From IMG/VR virus record IMGVR_UViG_3300024999_000024, positions 1 to 40,318 of that record: a stretch of 40,318 nt of DNA; one strand, written 5' to 3'. This DNA comes from a virus. Positions 955-40,318 of the stretch are shown piece after piece. Below the pieces are notes generated by a model, which was not told where the DNA came from, ran no database searches, and saw only the letters and a program-made list of their open reading frames with translations. How positions within the stretch are numbered: the stretch's first letter is position 1; every line of letters starts with the position of its first letter. The position numbers and the translations under genes are program-made.

Positions 955-957
955 TGC

Positions 958-986
958 TTGCATTTCAGATTGTAATATGCAATAAT
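958..986 (+). promoter_or_regulatory. Predicted promoter, replication operon
   Basis: TTGCAT (958-963), 17 bases, then AATAAT (981-986) with an extended -10 TGC at 978-980. The -35 is weak (three of six), but the TGC plus -10 arrangement matches the other pseudoknot promoters in this genome. Transcription would start near 993. Confidence 0.5.
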
Positions 987-1002
987 TAGGTAACTAGCAG
1001 TA

Positions 1003-1075
1003 GCCGACTTCCACCGGCAAAACAGATTTGGCCCAAATCATTGTGTGGAAGCAATGAGGCGGGCCGAAGCTTTTT
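1003..1075 (+). ncRNA. Interleaved-helix leader RNA, copy 1
   Basis: S1 pairs CTTCCAC (1008-1014) with GTGGAAG (1045-1051). S2 pairs TTTGGCCC (1027-1034) with GGGCCGAA (1061-1068), one G-U. The helices interleave, so both together form a pseudoknot. A T5 run follows at 1071-1075. A small hairpin GATTTG/CAAATC (1025-1039) competes with S2. The element lies between the promoter and the initiator gene at 1099. Confidence 0.55.
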
Positions 1076-4194: not shown

Positions 4195-4811
4195 AAGTAT
4201 TGGAATTATTCTGCGGAACCAAATCAATAAGCAAGGCATTTAAAGAGAAAGGCCACGAAGTCTTCTCTATAGATAATGACCCGCAACATAACCCCGATTT
4301 GTGTTGTGATGTCCTGGCACTCAATGTAAATGATCTCCCGTGGATACCGGATGTAATATGGGCCTCGCCCCCCTGCACCACTTTCAGCGTTGCCTCTATG
4401 GGCCATCATTGGGGCGGCGGTAAAGGGGCGTATATCCCTAAAACCAAAGAGGCCATAATCGGTATGCGACTAATGGCAAAGACCAAGGGTATAATACTTA
4501 AACTAAAACCTAAACTATGGTTTATAGAAAACCCTAGAGGCATGATGCGTAAGATGATAGGGCTTGATGAGTATATGAAGACTGTGACCTACTGCCAATA
4601 TGGTGATAAAAGAATGAAGCCAACCGATCTTTGGAGCAACGCAAACTGGACACCTAGGCCGATGTGCAAGAACGGATCCCCTTGCCACGAAGCTGCACCC
4701 CGTGGGTCAAAGACCGGGACACAAGGATTGAAGGGGGCAAAGGAGCGTGGTATTATCCCCGTAGAGTTATGCCGAGAGATAGTTAAGATATGCGAAGAAC
4801 AAATAAAATAA
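4191..4811 (+). CDS. Compact DNA (cytosine-5) methyltransferase-like protein
   Basis: 206 aa. Motif I is VLELFCGTKSIS (residues 3-14), and ASPPCTTFS (58-66) supplies the catalytic Cys62 of the C5 family. The usual ENV of motif VI reads FIENPRGMMR (ENP at 113-115). Conserved blocks QYGDKRMKPTDLWSN and APRGSKTGTQG follow. It lacks the long target-recognition domain of standard Dcm enzymes and belongs to a short phage-type variant. Whether it methylates cytosine in DNA or acts otherwise is inference. It is the last gene before a promoter. Confidence 0.8.
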   Translation: MKVLELFCGTKSISKAFKEKGHEVFSIDNDPQHNPDLCCDVLALNVNDLPWIPDVIWASPPCTTFSVASMGHHWGGGKGAYIPKTKEAIIGMRLMAKTKGIILKLKPKLWFIENPRGMMRKMIGLDEYMKTVTYCQYGDKRMKPTDLWSNANWTPRPMCKNGSPCHEAAPRGSKTGTQGLKGAKERGIIPVELCREIVKICEEQIK

Positions 4812-4814
4812 TCC

Positions 4815-4843
4815 TTGACAAGTAGAAACCTATCTGCCATAAT
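4815..4843 (+). promoter_or_regulatory. Predicted sigma70 promoter
   Basis: TTGACA (4815-4820), 17-base spacer, CATAAT (4838-4843) with extended -10 TGC at 4835-4837. Start predicted near 4850, directly at the first base of the S1 helix. Confidence 0.85.
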
Positions 4844-4850
4844 ATACCTA

Positions 4851-4943
4851 GGTCAAGGCGGTGTCGGTTATTTTAATTTAAAGGCCCTTTGCTACGCCGC
4901 CACCCCTTGACCAGAGTGACGAAAGCAAAGGGTCTAGTTTTTT
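4851..4943 (+). ncRNA. Interleaved-helix leader RNA, copy 2
   Basis: S1 pairs 4851-4863 with 4901-4912 (12 pairs, one bulged C; GGTCAAGG with CCTTGACC, then GGTG with CACC). S2 pairs GGCCCTTTGCT (4883-4893) with AGCAAAGGGTC (4924-4934), 11 pairs with one G-U. The S1 3' strand lies in the S2 loop. TCTAGTTTTTT follows (T6 at 4938-4943), as in an intrinsic terminator. The AAGGAG for the 4958 gene lies just after the T run. Confidence 0.75.
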
Positions 4944-4957
4944 AGCAAGGAGAAAAT

Positions 4958-5236
4958 ATGAAAAAGAGAATAACAATAACGCAGGGCAAAGGGATTCACT
5001 TAACTTTTGATAACGGGTATACCATATCTATTCAGTTCGGGTCTGGTAACTACTGCGACAATAAAAGCATCGCATATGGTGAAATACCAGATGGAGCGAA
5101 CACCGCAGAGGTTGCGGCATGGGGGCCTGGCGGAGAGTGGATGGAGTTGGGAGAGAATGACAAGGCTATTGGTTGGCAATCCCCTAACGATATTTTAAAT
5201 ACCATGCTTAAGGTTTCTAAAATGGGGGCCAAATGA
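4958..5236 (+). CDS. Conserved small phage protein, unknown function (92 aa)
   Basis: Begins MKKRITITQGKGIHLTFDNGYTISIQFGSGNYCDN and has a mid-section AAWGPGGEWMELG. Proteins with this TISIQFGxGNYCDN signature are familiar from phage early regions, where they are hypothetical. Mostly beta strand by appearance, no membrane segment. AAGGAG precedes the ATG. First gene behind the 4.8 kb leader RNA; overlaps the next gene as ATGA. Confidence 0.75.
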   Translation: MKKRITITQGKGIHLTFDNGYTISIQFGSGNYCDNKSIAYGEIPDGANTAEVAAWGPGGEWMELGENDKAIGWQSPNDILNTMLKVSKMGAK

Positions 5237-5965: not shown

Positions 5966-6208
5966 ATGGAAGACAAGACCAAAAATGAGATAATGGAAGT
6001 GTTGCTAGAGCGTTTATGGGACGACTCCCCCATTTCAGAAGCCCTAGCCAAAATCTGCGCCATCGTAGACGAGGAGAGGAAGGGGGAGGTGGTAGTCGCA
6101 CATTTTACAGAACCAGAGATTATAAGTTTAGAGGGAACGGATAGTTGCGCTTTTGAGTATGCAGTCCCAGGCGCAGGCCGTCTAATCTTCGTGCCAGATA
6201 AAGATTGA
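5966..6208 (+). CDS. Hypothetical acidic protein (80 aa)
   Basis: Begins MEDKTKNEIMEVLLERLWDD; an acidic helix is followed by a short beta-rich tail (GRLIFVPDKD). AAAGGAGG lies about ten bases upstream of the ATG. The stop codon is part of the -35 hexamer of the next promoter, so the operon ends here. No family recognised. Confidence 0.65.
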   Translation: MEDKTKNEIMEVLLERLWDDSPISEALAKICAIVDEERKGEVVVAHFTEPEIISLEGTDSCAFEYAVPGAGRLIFVPDKD

Positions 6209-6233
6209 ATATTCTATCAGAGTGTGCTATAAT
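6205..6233 (+). promoter_or_regulatory. Predicted extended -10 promoter
   Basis: TTGAAT (6205-6210), 17-base spacer, TATAAT (6228-6233) with TGC at 6225-6227. The -35 overlaps the stop of the upstream gene. Predicted start near 6240, two bases before the S1 helix. Confidence 0.85.
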
Positions 6234-6241
6234 ACATCTAT

Positions 6242-6314
6242 GGCCTCGGAAACCATAACAAATATGATTCCCCTTTTGCGCTCCATCCGAGGCCGCGCAT
6301 TTGGGGAGTCTTTT
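6242..6314 (+). ncRNA. Interleaved-helix leader RNA, copy 3
   Basis: S1 pairs GGCCTCGGA (6242-6250) with TCCGAGGCC (6286-6294), nine pairs. S2 pairs GATTCCCC (6266-6273) with GGGGAGTC (6303-6310), eight pairs with one G-U. TTTT follows at 6311-6314, then a GGAGG ribosome site and the HNH gene at 6326. Same order of strands as the 4.8 kb element, no shared stem sequence. Confidence 0.72.
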
Positions 6315-6325
6315 ATGGAGGTAGT

Positions 6326-6685
6326 ATGGAAACAAGTAGATATTTAAGGTATAAAAAAACGTATCAAGAGTACAGTAAAAATAACAGGGCCAAGATAAGG
6401 GATATAAGAAACAAGCAGAATAATCTGGACAGGTTTGGGCTATATAAAACCACAGCGGAGATATTAGACATAATAGGCAATAATTGTTTCGTGTGTGGGA
6501 TAAGCAATGATGAACACCTAAACAAACATAATAGATATTTAAGCATACACCACAAAGACAATAACGGGAGAAATTCTGCGGTTAAAAACAATAGGATAGA
6601 CAACCTGGCCCCAATTTGTTCTTCCTGTCATATGCGGATCCACAAGGTGTATTCAAAAAGTCCTAACGGCAAGCCGTCCAAGTAG
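6326..6685 (+). CDS. Free-standing HNH endonuclease
   Basis: 119 aa. The core is NCFVCGISND (C54, C57), YLSIHHKDNNGRN (H75, H76), RIDNLAPICSSCHMRIHK (N93, C98, C101, H102, H106): a zinc-structured beta-beta-alpha-metal HNH nuclease. The N-terminal 45 residues are a basic helical region that may bind DNA. GGAGG lies seven bases before the ATG. As the first gene behind a leader RNA it may be a homing-type selfish gene or a recombination/packaging nuclease; sequence does not decide. Confidence 0.85.
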   Translation: METSRYLRYKKTYQEYSKNNRAKIRDIRNKQNNLDRFGLYKTTAEILDIIGNNCFVCGISNDEHLNKHNRYLSIHHKDNNGRNSAVKNNRIDNLAPICSSCHMRIHKVYSKSPNGKPSK

Positions 6686-9874: not shown

Positions 9875-9993
9875 AGCGTAGATCCTGCCGCATATGGAAG
9901 TCCTGTCCCCCCCGATGCCTACTAGGGCTAGTCTGCACAACTACCTGTAGGCATTACGATAGAATACGGCATAGGTTGAAACGAAAGAAGTAA
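9871..9993 (+). CDS. Cysteine-rich basic mini-protein (40 aa)
   Basis: GTG start overlapping the previous stop (GTGA). Sequence VKRRSCRIWKSCPPRCLLGL followed by VCTTTCRHYDRIRHRLKRKK: five cysteines at residues 6, 12, 16, 22 and 26 and a strongly basic C terminus, so plausibly a metal-binding, nucleic-acid-binding peptide. The next promoter's -35 lies inside its end, so it closes the operon. Confidence 0.55.
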   Translation: MKRRSCRIWKSCPPRCLLGLVCTTTCRHYDRIRHRLKRKK

Positions 9994-10004
9994 TATGCTA
10001 ATAT
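9976..10004 (+). promoter_or_regulatory. Predicted promoter, dehydrogenase operon
   Basis: TTGAAA (9976-9981), 17-base spacer, TAATAT (9999-10004) with TGC at 9996-9998. Start near 10011, giving a leader of about 22 bases with AAGGAG and AGGAGG and no room for a pseudoknot element. Confidence 0.75.
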
Positions 10005-10032
10005 AAATTAAATTAAGGAGACAGGAGGAATA

Positions 10033-13415: not shown

Positions 13416-13569
13416 CGGTCTATGTTAAGAAACCGCAAACGAGCTAGGGCAACTCGGTAAACGGCCCTAAATTTGGATAGACTGTTGTCCTCTCCTTCAG
13501 CAGACTATCGGGAGTAGATACTACTAGTGGCAATTCTACCCCTTGTGCTAACACCTGAAAGCACTTACT
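13415..13569 (+). ncRNA. Structured segment with compact H-type pseudoknot after terL
   Basis: In order: hairpin GCGGT/ACCGC (13415-13436); H-type pseudoknot with S1 CGAG (13440-13443)/CTCG (13453-13456), S2 TAGGGC (13445-13450)/GCCCTA (13464-13469), loops 1, 2 and 7 nt; hairpin TAGACTGTTG (13478-13487)/CAGCAGACTA (13498-13507) with one mismatch and one G-U; then GGGAGTAGA/TCTACCCC with a bulged A; finally GTGCT/AGCAC just before the 13570 ATG. No promoter or Shine-Dalgarno seen. Confidence 0.5.
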
Positions 13570-13871: not shown

Positions 13872-13901
13872 TTGACAACCATTTAAAACATTTGCTATAT
13901 G
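13872..13901 (+). promoter_or_regulatory. Predicted promoter of the 13.9 kb RNA
   Basis: TTGACA (13872-13877), 18-base spacer, TATATG (13896-13901) with TGC at 13893-13895. Predicted start near 13908, the first base of the S1 helix. Confidence 0.7.
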
Positions 13902-13907
13902 GATGTT

Positions 13908-13993
13908 GCTTAAGGCAGTGTCCACATAGTTTACCACCCCCCGAACGGACGCCGCCTTAAGCACACGGACATCAAGTGGGGGGTGGCTTTTTT
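13908..13993 (+). ncRNA. Interleaved-helix RNA, copy 4, probably free-standing
   Basis: S1 pairs GCTTAAGGC (13908-13916) with GCCTTAAGC (13954-13962), extended across an internal loop by GTCC (13920-13923)/GGAC (13947-13950). S2 pairs CCACCCCCC (13934-13942) with GGGGGGTGG (13978-13986). T6 follows at 13988-13993. No gene starts within 300 bases downstream, so this copy looks like a short RNA ended by its own terminator. Confidence 0.72.
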
Positions 13994-14242: not shown

Positions 14243-14271
14243 TTGACAATTAGATTAAATTTATGTATAAG
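14243..14271 (+). promoter_or_regulatory. Predicted promoter for the virion operon
   Basis: TTGACA (14243-14248), 17-base spacer, TATAAG (14266-14271). Start near 14278; the short leader carries AGAGGGAC before the portal ATG and no pseudoknot element. Confidence 0.85.
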
Positions 14272-14300: not shown

Positions 14301-16316
14301 ATGGACAGAATAGAATCAGATGTTTTACCCGCCGAAGCCGTAGACTACCTCAACCAGATTGAATCAGAACCCGACAAGAACGCTTTTATGCAGATAGAAG
14401 CTGCCAAGTCTGAACTGCATAGCCATGTATGCGAATGGCAGAAGAAGTCTGCTGATTGGCGTAAAGCGTCATATGAGGGCAAATGGCAGAAGTATCAGCG
14501 TAATACTGATGGAGTCTTTGACCCACAGATTAGTGCCAAGAAAGAAGATTGGCAGTCTAAAGTATTCGTAGGCATTACTGCTTCCCATCGTGAAACTATC
14601 CATTCCCACCTGTTCAAGACTATGGCAGGTATCAACCCCCCTATGGAGGTTAAGTCCCGCTTCAACCTTGGCGAAGTAGACCAGTCAAAGAACATACAGG
14701 CCATAATGCTCCGTGAGATGGACAAGGCCAGTTGGGCGGTTGTCTTTGATACGGCTATGCACGATGCCGATACTTTTGGTAGTGGCTTTGTCCGCGTATC
14801 TTGGAAGACTGAAACGGCTATACGCAAACTGAAGAAGCCCGTTAAAGAGGGATTCACCGATAACCTTAACCCTATGGGCATGGTCGGTTATGCTATGCGG
14901 GCCGCTACTGGTAAACTGCGGGATACTGCCTATGAGGAAGCCGAGGAAGAAGTAATAACCTATCGTGGACTGTCCCTCAAGCATTACTCTATCTGGGATA
15001 TCTTCCCTGACCCCAAAGCGTTGCAGATACCTGGTTCTACGATTGCTTGCCGCTACAAAGTTACTTACGAAGATATAGTCAAGGGTGCGGATAGTGGCTA
15101 TTACCTTGCCGATGCACCGGAGAAACTGCGCAATATTGATGAAAGCGAGAAGTTCGCCGAGGGTGAGGATATCGTGCAGGCCGATAGGGATATAGCGGAT
15201 CACGAGGCCCCCAGAACCGAATACGGAAAAGTGCTTACTTGCTACGAAGTATTCGGCAAGTTCCCGCAGAAGTGGATACATACGATAATGGGTATTCCGG
15301 TAGAAACTCCCGAGATGCTTGTATCCGGTAGGGTTATCTTCCATCAGAACTGCCTTGTAGCCGTTGAGATAAACGACGAATACGATGGCGAGGCTCCTAT
15401 CTATAAGCTGGACTACTATCCCGTTAATGGCTCGTTCTATGGGCGTGGTGTCCCCGAGATGCTTGAAGATAGTCAGGCCGTTATCAACGAAGTAGTCAAC
15501 CAACGTTTAGACAATGGGGCTATGATACTGAATAAGTCGTTTGGTATCGTAGAGAAGGCCCTTGTTAACCCGAAGCAGGACTTGGTTAGCAAGCCCGGTA
15601 TGATGATTAGGTTGGACGGGAACAAGATACCCAATGGTGATGTCCGTAATGCTATTATGGAGTTCACTATCAACGATACTCCGCTTCGTGCTGGCTTCAG
15701 CGAGGTCAACGAGGCCGAGAGGTGGGCGCAGGAACGGACTAGTGCCAATCGTGTAACCTTGGGCACGGCAGGGCTTGTTAAGGACGCTAACCAGACCCTT
15801 GGTGGGCAACAGATGCTCCGTGAATCGGCTGGCGAGAAGTTCGCCTATATCGGTCTGCGGATGGAGTTAGACTTCCTCAAGAAGTTCTTCCACGGCATTT
15901 GGAAGACTATCTACAAGAATATGACCCCGCAGGATATTGAGGATAGCATAGGCCCCGATGCCGTGCAGACCTTCATCCCGATTACGCCCGAGGAAATAGA
16001 AAGGGACTATATCTATATGCCCCTTGGCGTGTTTACGATGGAGAACAAGGCCCTCCGGCAGGCTAGGTTGCTTGAGATACGCAAAGAGTTCCTTGGTGCG
16101 CCGTGGGTCAATGACGAGAGTTACTTTGATGTCGTTATGCAGAACGCTGACGAAGATCCCGAGAGGTTCAAGAAGGACGAAGACCAGATTATACAGGAAC
16201 AAGGGATGATGCTCCCCTCACCTACGGAAGAAGTGCCTCCTGGGCCTATGCCTGATACTGGCGTTATCCCGCAGACCCGATCGCAAGGTGGGGCAGTAGT
16301 AAAGGGGGGAAGGTGA
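14301..16316 (+). CDS. Portal protein
   Basis: 671 aa, the size of podovirus-type portals. The N terminus DWQSKVFVGITASHRETIHSHLFKTMAGINPPMEVKSRF is typical of this group, followed by the long wing and stem region and a C-terminal low-complexity tail (PSPTEEVPPGPMPDTGVIPQTRSQGGAVV). Twelve copies would form the vertex ring through which terminase packs DNA and to which the adaptor (25683) binds. AGAGGGAC precedes the ATG. The assignment rests on size, the N-terminal block and position between terminase and scaffold/capsid. Confidence 0.85.
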   Translation: MDRIESDVLPAEAVDYLNQIESEPDKNAFMQIEAAKSELHSHVCEWQKKSADWRKASYEGKWQKYQRNTDGVFDPQISAKKEDWQSKVFVGITASHRETIHSHLFKTMAGINPPMEVKSRFNLGEVDQSKNIQAIMLREMDKASWAVVFDTAMHDADTFGSGFVRVSWKTETAIRKLKKPVKEGFTDNLNPMGMVGYAMRAATGKLRDTAYEEAEEEVITYRGLSLKHYSIWDIFPDPKALQIPGSTIACRYKVTYEDIVKGADSGYYLADAPEKLRNIDESEKFAEGEDIVQADRDIADHEAPRTEYGKVLTCYEVFGKFPQKWIHTIMGIPVETPEMLVSGRVIFHQNCLVAVEINDEYDGEAPIYKLDYYPVNGSFYGRGVPEMLEDSQAVINEVVNQRLDNGAMILNKSFGIVEKALVNPKQDLVSKPGMMIRLDGNKIPNGDVRNAIMEFTINDTPLRAGFSEVNEAERWAQERTSANRVTLGTAGLVKDANQTLGGQQMLRESAGEKFAYIGLRMELDFLKKFFHGIWKTIYKNMTPQDIEDSIGPDAVQTFIPITPEEIERDYIYMPLGVFTMENKALRQARLLEIRKEFLGAPWVNDESYFDVVMQNADEDPERFKKDEDQIIQEQGMMLPSPTEEVPPGPMPDTGVIPQTRSQGGAVVKGGR

Positions 16317-18883: not shown

Positions 18884-18890
18884 GTAAATA

Positions 18891-18935
18891 TATCCCCTCC
18901 CTCTGTAGTCTAGGGGGAGGGGGTATTTAAATTTT
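18891..18935 (+). terminator. Intrinsic terminator after the major capsid gene
   Basis: Stem 18891-18903 with 18913-18925: thirteen pairs, G+C rich (CCCCTCCC with GGGGAGGGG), nine-base loop, followed by TTTAAATTTT. It may limit read-through so that capsid protein is made in excess over the fibre-like genes. Confidence 0.85.
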
Positions 18936-35862: not shown

Positions 35863-35891
35863 TTGCACTTCCCGAAACTATCTGCTAGTAT
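35863..35891 (+). promoter_or_regulatory. Predicted extended -10 promoter
   Basis: TTGCAC (35863-35868), 17-base spacer, TAGTAT (35886-35891) with TGC at 35883-35885. Predicted start near 35898, at the base of S1. Confidence 0.75.
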
Positions 35892-35899
35892 TTAGGTAG

Positions 35900-35965
35900 G
35901 CCGGGAAGCCAAATTTACTGCCTCGCATTTTACCCTTCCCGGCTTAATGCGGGGCGGTCTATTTT
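35900..35965 (+). ncRNA. Interleaved-helix leader RNA, copy 5
   Basis: S1 pairs GCCGGGAAG (35900-35908) with CTTCCCGGC (35935-35943). S2 pairs ACTGCCTCGCATT (35917-35929) with AATGCGGGGCGGT (35946-35958), 13 pairs of which two are G-U. CTATTTTA follows, then AGGAGG (35968-35973) and ATG 35978. Only two bases separate S1 3' from S2 3', so the helices could stack. Confidence 0.75.
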
Positions 35966-35977
35966 ATAGGAGGAACT

Positions 35978-36196
35978 ATGAAAGCAATATGGAATAAAGA
36001 AGGAAATGCTATGTGTACTGACAAAGACCCTAAATCTTTAGAATGTCCTAGATGCAAGTCAGACAATATATCATTCCCTCTCCGCTGTCCTACTTGTGGG
36101 GACATAACGCCGTTTATTACTTGCAAGGTATGCGGGGATAAGGCCGAAGAGATCAACTACTGCGATGAGTGCGAATATGAGTGGGATATTATATAG
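35978..36196 (+). CDS. Zinc-ribbon protein (72 aa)
   Basis: Three or four Cys pairs: LECPRCKSDN, LRCPTCGDITPFITCKVCGDKAEE and NYCDECEYEW. Reads as two consecutive zinc ribbons, so probably a nucleic-acid or RNA-polymerase-binding regulator. AGGAGG five bases before the ATG is the strongest ribosome site in the window. First gene behind a leader RNA. Confidence 0.75.
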   Translation: MKAIWNKEGNAMCTDKDPKSLECPRCKSDNISFPLRCPTCGDITPFITCKVCGDKAEEINYCDECEYEWDII

Positions 36197-36234: not shown

Positions 36235-36924
36235 ATGACCAACCAAGAAAAAGAAACCATTGCTGCAATGTATAAATCTGGCATCACTATGTCAGATATT
36301 GCGAAGAAGTTTAATAGGAGCAGGGAGAGAATACGGCAACTCCTGGCTGCACAAGGCATTACCCGTATTATGGGTGGACTTCATCTGTCTGCTATAGCCA
36401 GAACCAAAAGGGTTCAAGAAATAGCATACGCTAATAGAAAGAAAAGAATAAATAGGACATATTCATGTTCCCCGGAAGAATATGATGCCATAATGGGAAG
36501 AAGTAAGTTTTATCATGGGTGCATAGCGAATAGATATTTAAGCCATAAGTATAATGCCAACAAAAGAGGTATAGATTTTACAATATCATTCCCAGATTGG
36601 TATAAGATATGGGTGGATAGTGGGCATATGGACGACAGGGGTATTGGGAAAGGAAAATTTGTGATGTCCAGATTCAAAGACCTAGGCCCGTATGAAGTTG
36701 GAAATGTTGAAATAATCCCTGCTCCAAAAAACAATTCAGATGCTTGGAAATATAAGAAATGGGATCTAAATCACGGGACATCGTTAGCGGGAATGACAGA
36801 AGATGAAAAAAAGGCCCGGGCGGCTGCAAGATTTAAAAGAATATATTGGGCAAATCCGGAAAAATATCGGCAGAAAGCGAGAGAAGAATATCGTAGAAAA
36901 GCCCAAAAGACCCTTGCCGAGTAG
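36235..36924 (+). CDS. HTH protein with HNH-like endonuclease region (229 aa)
   Basis: Residues about 1-45 form a sigma-like helix-turn-helix (AAMYKSGITMSDIAKKFNRSRERIRQLLAAQGI). Residues about 95-165 (KYNANKRGIDFTISFPDWYKIWVDSGHMDDRGIGKGKFVMSRFKDLGPYEVGNVEIIPAPKNNSDA) match a module frequent in phage mobile endonuclease-like proteins (RGK-x-V-M-S-R-x-x-D-x-G-x-Y-x-x-x-N-V-x-I). The C terminus is a basic helix. Start taken as ATG 36235; a TTG at 36229 is possible. It may be a homing endonuclease or a regulator of the adjacent promoters. Confidence 0.65.
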   Translation: MTNQEKETIAAMYKSGITMSDIAKKFNRSRERIRQLLAAQGITRIMGGLHLSAIARTKRVQEIAYANRKKRINRTYSCSPEEYDAIMGRSKFYHGCIANRYLSHKYNANKRGIDFTISFPDWYKIWVDSGHMDDRGIGKGKFVMSRFKDLGPYEVGNVEIIPAPKNNSDAWKYKKWDLNHGTSLAGMTEDEKKARAAARFKRIYWANPEKYRQKAREEYRRKAQKTLAE

Positions 36925-36943
36925 TAGGTTTATCTGCTATAAC
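36914..36943 (+). promoter_or_regulatory. Predicted extended -10 promoter, recombination operon
   Basis: TTGCCG (36914-36919), 18-base spacer, TATAAC (36938-36943) with TGC at 36935-36937. The -35 lies in the end of the upstream gene. Start near 36950. Confidence 0.7.
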
Positions 36944-36958
36944 ATAGTGAGAGATTAA

Positions 36959-37043
36959 GTCCGGCGAAACAAGGGTGCGTATTATCAATTTGTAACCCCC
37001 GTTTACGCGCCCTTCGCCGGACGACAGACGGGGGTTGCTCTTT
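36959..37043 (+). ncRNA. Interleaved-helix leader RNA, copy 6
   Basis: S1 pairs GTCCGGCGAA (36959-36968) with TTCGCCGGAC (37013-37022) and continues, after a four-base bulge, with GGGTGCGT (36973-36980)/ACGCGCCC (37005-37012): 18 pairs in all. S2 pairs GTAACCCCCGT (36992-37002) with ACGGGGGTTGC (37028-37038), 11 pairs with one G-U. TCTTT follows. The U run is weaker than in other copies and a further 208 bases precede the next gene. Confidence 0.75.
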
Positions 37044-37251: not shown

Positions 37252-37434
37252 ATGAACCTCATAAAAGTGTGTTGCGATTGCAAGAAAGAGTTAGGTAGGC
37301 AAGCCCTACCCGCAGACTACGGAAAAGATAGTCTGCCAGCGGAATACAAAGGCAAAGACTTATATTCACACGGGTTTTGCGATAAGTGCGCCGAGAAGCG
37401 GTTAAAGGAGATAAACAATGGAAAACATAAGTGA
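37252..37434 (+). CDS. Small zinc-finger protein (60 aa)
   Basis: VCCDCKKELG at the start and FCDKCAEKRLKEI at the end provide CxxC pairs that would form one zinc site, with LPADYGKDSLPAEYKGKDLYSHG between. Resembles small TraR/DksA-like or Com-like proteins, but the helical hairpin is too short to assign. AGGAGG precedes the ATG. Overlaps the annealing-protein gene by 17 bases. Confidence 0.65.
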   Translation: MNLIKVCCDCKKELGRQALPADYGKDSLPAEYKGKDLYSHGFCDKCAEKRLKEINNGKHK

Positions 37435-39837: not shown

Positions 39838-40209
39838 ATGGACGAGGAGATATTTTCGTTTCAAGAACGCATAGAAGCGCACGAGAACGACCTAAACAAA
39901 AAGCGGATCTCGTACCAGGTTCTAGGTGAACGCCTAGCCGAGTTAGAAACCCAAGTCCGTAAGACCGCATTAGAGTATATGCATAATAACCCCGATGCCA
40001 AGAAGATGAGCATAGATAAAATAGAACTGGTATCGGCTGCGACACAGGAACAAAAGGCAGACTATTATGAATTAGTAGGTTTGCGAATCCGTGAAAAGAT
40101 AGCAGATAAAATGATAGAATCTATCCACGGGTCAATGTCAAGCGTTCAGTCGTTAATGTCATACTGGAAATCTACGCAGTTCGCAATAACAAACAAGGGG
40201 AATAAATAA
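39838..40209 (+). CDS. Coiled-coil protein (123 aa)
   Basis: Begins MDEEIFSFQERIEAHENDLNKKRISYQVLGERLAELETQVRKTALEY; heptad-like helices at about 6-45 and 85-110. No enzyme motif. Its stop overlaps the ATG of the copy of the 18-206 gene (TAATG), which links the two ends of the contig in one operon. Confidence 0.7.
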   Translation: MDEEIFSFQERIEAHENDLNKKRISYQVLGERLAELETQVRKTALEYMHNNPDAKKMSIDKIELVSAATQEQKADYYELVGLRIREKIADKMIESIHGSMSSVQSLMSYWKSTQFAITNKGNK

Positions 40210-40318
40210 TGGATATCACAACCGAGAAACCTAACCGCATAGCCTACAAGCACCTGTATCTTCGCTACAAGGCGTTATTCTTTCTAGCCCTAACCGCTTG
40301 GCTATTCACTATGGGGTT
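40192..40318. repeat. Terminal direct repeat, right copy
   Basis: Exact copy of 1-127. The last 110 bases (40209-40318) encode the first 36 residues of the membrane protein at 18-206 and should not be counted as a separate gene. Confidence 0.95.

Follow-up and report, generated by a model that had tools for sequence, protein, structure and literature searches.

The pR'-tR' region of phage lambda combines a late promoter, the 6S RNA and a promoter-proximal terminator. In the leader of T4 gene 32, a pseudoknot with short stems binds the phage's own protein gp32 and serves one gene, and the preQ1 and SAM-II riboswitches are leaders with an H-type fold and a conserved ligand-binding core. ToxI, the RNA of type III toxin-antitoxin systems, is pseudoknotted, has a promoter before it and a terminator after it, precedes the gene for its toxin endoribonuclease and consists of tandem repeats cut by that toxin. 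The put RNA of phage HK022 is a cis-acting nascent RNA (~70 nt) after phage early promoters, present in more than one copy per genome; it folds into a nested pair of stem-loops plus a triplex, the copies resembling one another in sequence (PMC9378689).

The window, by which we mean the whole stretch of DNA that was analysed, comprises 40,318 bases, and its likely genes are all on the + strand. Its first 127 bases (1-127) are identical to its last 127 (40192-40318), and two relatives have identical ends of 127 and 123 bases. Such ends typically arise when an assembler overlaps a genome that is circular or terminally redundant, so that we regard the window as a closed and probably complete phage genome. 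Terminase and capsid alignments against GTDB genomes gave no match, and a capsid search of GenBank phages returned only three matches (22-26% identity); the phage group thus appears to have remote GenBank matches only, with no close cultured relative found. Five places in the window, copies A to E, share one layout: TTGnnn, a spacer of 17-18 nt and an extended -10 (TG, one base, hexamer), followed by the 5' arm of a first helix (S1 5'), the 5' arm of a second (S2 5'), S1 3', S2 3' and a U-rich stretch.

4815..4843, + strand: copy A promoter, TTGACA (4815-4820), 17 nt, CATAAT (4838-4843), TG extension
4851..4943, + strand: copy A RNA, S1 5' arm GGTCAAGG (4851-4858) plus GGTG (4860-4863)
4905-4912, + strand: copy A S1 3' arm, plus CACC (4901-4904)
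4883-4893 and 4924-4934, + strand: copy A S2 5' and 3' arms, with U6 at 4938-4943
6205..6233, + strand: copy B promoter, TTGAAT-17-TATAAT, -10 at 6228, TG extension
6241..6314, + strand: copy B RNA, S1 5' arm 6241-6250, S2 5' arm 6266-6273
6286-6295 and 6303-6310, + strand: copy B S1 3' and S2 3' arms, with U4 at 6311-6314
13872..13901, + strand: copy C promoter, TTGACA, 18 nt, TATATG (13896-13901), TG extension
13907..13993, + strand: copy C RNA, S1 5' arm 13907-13923, S2 5' arm 13934-13943
13947-13963 and 13977-13986, + strand: copy C S1 3' and S2 3' arms, with U6 at 13988-13993
35863..35891, + strand: copy D promoter, TTGCAC (35863-35868), 17 nt, TAGTAT (35886-35891), TG extension
35897..35965, + strand: copy D RNA, S1 5' arm 35897-35908, S2 5' arm 35917-35929
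35935-35946 and 35946-35958, + strand: copy D S1 3' and S2 3' arms (one shared base), with tail CTATTTTATAG
36914..36943, + strand: copy E promoter, TTGCCG, 18 nt, TATAAC (36938-36943), TG extension
36959..37043, + strand: copy E RNA, S1 5' arm 36959-36968, S2 5' arm 36992-37004
37013-37022 and 37026-37038, + strand: copy E S1 3' and S2 3' arms, with tail TCTTTG

Copies A, B and D are followed by a Shine-Dalgarno sequence and then by a 92-aa ORF (at 4958), an HNH endonuclease ORF (at 6326) and a 72-aa zinc-ribbon-like ORF (at 35978), respectively. After copy C, the portal ORF starts only at 14301 and another promoter ends at 14271; the next ORF after copy E lies at 37252.

Each of the described systems is matched in part. 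Like lambda pR'-tR', the elements place a terminator-like site within ~100-200 nt of a promoter, which would give a short phage RNA and a gated entry into the gene; the lambda region, however, has a plain terminator without crossing helices, occurs in one copy and depends on Q and its DNA binding site. As in the T4 gene 32 leader, a (here predicted) H-type pseudoknot in a phage mRNA lies upstream of an A/U-rich ribosome site, but that leader has no terminator-like U-run directly after the knot. The preQ1 and SAM-II riboswitches likewise have an H-type fold in a leader, close to a terminator or ribosome site, whereas here conserved bases and an Rfam match are absent and several copies per genome precede unrelated genes. 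The arrangement of ToxI is similar as well, yet the units described here are single, non-repeated and placed before unrelated genes, and no toxin was found among the listed matches of the downstream products, which speaks against ToxI membership.

By position, put is the nearest known system: the five window copies and those of five relatives described below (G003, G010, G011, G017 and G026) likewise lie downstream of promoters. In a put-like reading, RNA polymerase would be bound by the emerging knot and would then transcribe through terminators farther along; the location just past promoters, in several copies per genome, speaks for this. In G003 and G013 the element starts an early operon, as putL does in HK022 (PMC9378689), and the late gene block of the window contains, just past the major capsid gene (18890-18926), a strong terminator-like hairpin of 16 pairs with the tail TTAAATTTTG. 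However, put stems are nested and put copies alike in sequence (PMC9378689), while here the stems cross in all copies, the sequences are unrelated and a U-run, not a described feature of put, ends the element directly after S2. Our scanner also finds nothing in HK022. Membership in the put family is contradicted by these differences, and put-like antitermination, which the sequence-only reading had suggested, appears quite unlikely.

All six sites reported by that reading were read in the sequence, and a purpose-written scanner was applied. It requires a sigma-70-type promoter (TTGACA, 16-18 nt, TATAAT, with TG as a bonus) and two crossing stems starting 2-30 nt past the -10, and scores stem energy, compactness and T content after S2; the promoters are predicted, as sigma-70-type consensus matches. 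Copy C scored 37.1 (S1 at 13907), copy D 31.9 (35897), copy E 29.3 (36959), copy A 27.4 (4857) and copy B 24.1 (6241), and the sixth-best site in the window reached 17.9. In 120 dinucleotide shuffles the best score had a mean of 18.0 (sd 1.8) and a maximum of 23.5, and none of the 120 reached 24, so that the five copies (24.1-37.1) passed the comparison with shuffled sequence that had been proposed for them. With stems alone, copies C and E are the top two crossing pairs on the + strand. Of the six promoter-linked copies claimed, those with the -10 at 4838, 6228, 13896, 35886 and 36938 stood. The one at 957..1060 (+ strand, -10 at 981) is a TTGCAT-17-AATAAT promoter only: its S1 has four pairs (GCCG/CGGC), a U-run is absent, its crossing stems are at chance level and it is not in the scanner list. 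The distance from the -10 hexamer to S1 is 5-7 nt in copies A-D, in agreement with a predicted transcript start 0-2 bases before S1, and 15 nt in copy E. Promoter-like sites ending at 986, 10004, 11516, 14271 and 36228 of the window lack the element; the one at 14243-14271, TTGACA-17-TATAAG, lies right before the portal gene.

Because the scoring was designed after the window had been seen, the set of relatives, scanned with the scanner unchanged, provides the independent test. These relatives are uncultured phages from IMG/VR, retrieved by terminase and capsid alignments. Matches were obtained in G003 (+41248, score 34.2), G010 (-752, 33.1), G011 (-882, 39.7), G017 (+8408, 22.6) and G026 (-19973, 22.7). 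In G013, the highest score of any crossing pair belongs to an 8-bp S1 with a 13-bp S2 (-29916), preceded by a -10-like GACAAT 6 nt before S1 but by no clear -35. At least one element was present in all five genomes of >40 kb with a terminase at least 45% identical to that of the window, the window included. The capsid relatives G032 and G034 lack it, as do lambda, HK022, T7, Pf-WMP4 and three Manatee Spring phages, in which the scanner reached at most 21.5, and no convincing case was found in 540 kb of other phage loci. Crossing pairs elsewhere in relatives (e.g. G020 +37648, G028 and G031/G032) were set aside as background, the U-tail being absent or the promoter geometry wrong. A compact crossing pair of 10 and 9 bp with the U-rich tail ATTTATTTAGGGGA in G038 (L147:8946-9000, +8946) is a possible further member; its promoter is not recognisable. 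A 16-base pattern from the G017/G026 leader retrieved from IMG/VR only G017, G026 and unrelated matches, and additional leaders were not found among homologues of their homing endonucleases.

The gene context of the 11 curated copies (five from the window and one each from G003, G010, G011, G013, G017 and G026) is of two kinds. A ribosome site and start codon follow the element directly in copies A, B and D, G013, G017 and G026, and the next likely gene begins ~40 to 400 nt past it in copies C and E, G003, G010 and G011. According to the translations, the element opens an early-type gene block in G003 and G013, with an integrase-like gene on the other strand. In G017 and G026 it precedes a homing endonuclease gene that runs opposite to the structural genes. 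These two endonucleases (L107, L106) have homologous leaders and a similar zinc-finger N-terminus; by reading, their catalytic domains were assigned to different types, one LAGLIDADG-like and the other HNH-like.

Three observations indicate that selection acts on the transcribed RNA. The stems of the 11 copies, a small sample, contain, in the promoter sense, 235 Watson-Crick pairs, 17 G-U and 1 A-C (binomial p 7e-5); this excess is partly ascertainment, since G-U was permitted in the calling of stems, although the scan covered both strands. In the 9 nt after S2 there are on average 6.2 T as compared to 2.2 after other crossing pairs (p ~1e-8), and a U-rich tail, ranging in strength from U3 to U6, is present in 11/11 copies. 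Finally, in an ungapped alignment of S1 between G017 and G026, both bases differed in 7 pairs, a single base in 2 and neither in 8, while 1 position was unpaired in one of the two leaders; sliding the 3' arm by 1-3 bases left 0-2 double changes. Across these leaders there are 7 + 1 compensatory pairs, and identity is 72% in loops and 58% in stems. The claim of covariation inside one genome was loosely worded, since the five window copies are not alignable stem by stem, but compensatory change was recovered between these two relatives. Inverted repeats are also DNA palindromes, and some copies adjoin homing-endonuclease genes, as might be expected if they were protein-binding or recombination sites and the RNA incidental. 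Such a DNA-level element is very improbable: it is disfavoured by the count of 17 G-U against 1 A-C in the transcribed sense, the directional U-run and the fixed distance from +1.

The H-type order S1 5', S2 5', S1 3', S2 3' is found in all 11 copies. The two stems are predicted to fold simultaneously as a pseudoknot. S1 and S2 share no bases, apart from one in copy D; any hindrance of S2 by S1 would have to be topological or kinetic. The loops are long enough to span the stems: a third loop of 0-3 nt goes with a second loop of 5-18 nt, and a second loop of 0 nt with a third of 11 nt. In H-type pseudoknots the third loop is A-rich and U-poor and the first loop A/U-rich; in these copies A+U accounts for 73% of the first loop, and A and U for 41% and 13% of the third. 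Pairing between the first loop and the U-tail was not above shuffles. The stems are unrelated between copies, and no loop or stem sequence is conserved across the copies of one genome; global similarity between copies is modestly above shuffles, which is attributable to the shared layout of G+C stems and A+U loops. The conserved topology with free sequence that had been proposed applies to five of the six reported copies and to the relatives, and fails for the one with the -10 at 981.

Rfam 15 gave no match at gathering score for the whole window and none for the loci around G026, G017, window copy A and G003; for window positions 4780-5000 the best result was a chance miRNA match (E 0.56). 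As far as Rfam 15 can tell, the earlier statement that no named family applies is upheld, and no element like this crossing-helix leader was found in the open-access literature. An HDV-like ribozyme has the same helix order but was dropped, as P3 and P4 would not fit and the promoter sets the 5' end; a group I intron core was rejected since the element is too short and without an Rfam match. Phage leader RNAs are known as a kind; as far as found, a crossing layout with free sequence that recurs within one genome is not.

We propose, with a probability of roughly 0.42, that the copies are attenuators close to their promoters and that each takes the form of a 5'-terminal H-type pseudoknot. Transcription by RNA polymerase would start at or within ~2 bases of S1, and S1 would close once its 3' arm has emerged. 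S2, a G+C-rich helix with the S1 3' arm inside its loop, would form at the U-run and together with it bring about intrinsic termination or a strong pause. Many transcripts would then stop as RNAs of ~70-95 nt with both ends in helices, and some would read through into the downstream gene; we infer both termination and read-through at the elements. Because only topology is kept, control would have to come from structure, either through the kinetics of S1 versus S2 or through a factor able to recognise the knot or the polymerase; the absence of a common sequence among copies in one genome makes a sequence-specific regulator and site unlikely.

A G+C-rich hairpin and a U-tract lie between promoter and gene in 11/11 copies, and a ribosome site and start closely after S2, as in six copies, is the usual layout of an attenuator. 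In copies C and E and in G010, the U-run is present and no Shine-Dalgarno sequence is nearby, which indicates that the U-run belongs with S2 and not with a ribosome site; the most plausible role of S2 is therefore intrinsic termination or pausing. The slot of copy C between terminase and portal has a counterpart in L003 (1403-1550; terminase 64% identical), where a plain, non-crossing hairpin with T8 lies ~100 nt past a TTGACA-17-TATAAT promoter and before the portal gene, and we count this for an attenuator. Against it, the U-tracts of B, D, E and G013 are short or broken (U3-U4) and would terminate weakly, the S2 loop of ~20-45 nt is longer than in usual terminators, and no regulator or antiterminator gene was found among the 25 most-matched families listed. 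In addition, S1 is not explained by termination alone.

S1 starts 5-9 nt past the -10, i.e. at about +1, in 8/10 copies with a called promoter. B. subtilis RppH requires at least 2 unpaired 5' nucleotides, and 5' stem-loops are cited as mRNA-stabilising (PMC3997798). A knot at +1 would leave too few unpaired 5' bases for RppH or 5'-dependent RNases, and 5'-end protection may thus be a second or even the main role of the element: with free read-through, the U-stretch would serve as unstructured ribosome entry, and the function would not depend on sequence, as observed. One hairpin would suffice for this, however, the -10-to-S1 distance is 26 nt in G003 and 15 nt in copy E, and the U-run after S2 is left unexplained where the ribosome site is distant (C, E and G010). 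As an account of the whole element, a 5'-end shield or expression leader is possible but doubtful.

The helices at both RNA ends would equally suit a stand-alone regulatory or decoy RNA of 70-95 nt with a target in trans (RNA polymerase, an RNase or a defence protein), the downstream gene mattering little. The strong terminator-like tails of copy C and G010, with the next likely gene >200 nt off, fit such a product, yet six copies lie directly before a ribosome site, and the absence of conserved loop or stem sequence across copies is hard to square with a common target; we regard it as unlikely. The four functions suggested earlier (attenuator, put-like antitermination, 5'-end protection and short phage RNA) cannot all hold, and the U-run in 11/11 copies favours an attenuator or a short terminated RNA.

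Beyond the attenuator at each copy, the elements might form a topology-only class of regulatory RNA, a self-contained and sequence-free device of gene control in which a 5'-end helix threads the loop of a promoter-proximal terminator and the outcome of knot versus terminator sets expression. Phages would spread this device, and homing-endonuclease genes would bring it along as a leader ready for use. We consider this wider proposal rather doubtful. RNA families are normally found via conserved sequence or alignable covariation, and searches of both kinds would miss this one since only its layout is kept. The persistence of the layout under free change of sequence suggests a type of gene switch or RNA shield not previously recognised in phages. 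If an attenuator, it would be a compact expression switch reused by phages and homing-endonuclease genes; if a 5' shield, phages would protect their mRNAs from 5'-dependent decay with knots.

No unusual structure was seen in the stretch that separates copy C from the portal gene or in the one that follows copy E. The intergenic stretch after the terminase gene (window 13416-13569) contains four or five successive hairpins (fold z-score -1.75), and another intergenic stretch (9875-10032) contains the arms ATGCCTAC/GTAGGCAT followed by a TTGAAA-17-TGCTAATAT promoter without the element. Directly before the -10, copies A, D and E (4815-4843, 35863-35891 and 36914-36943) have TATCTGC in common, which suggests that their promoter modules are duplicates whose stems later diverged.
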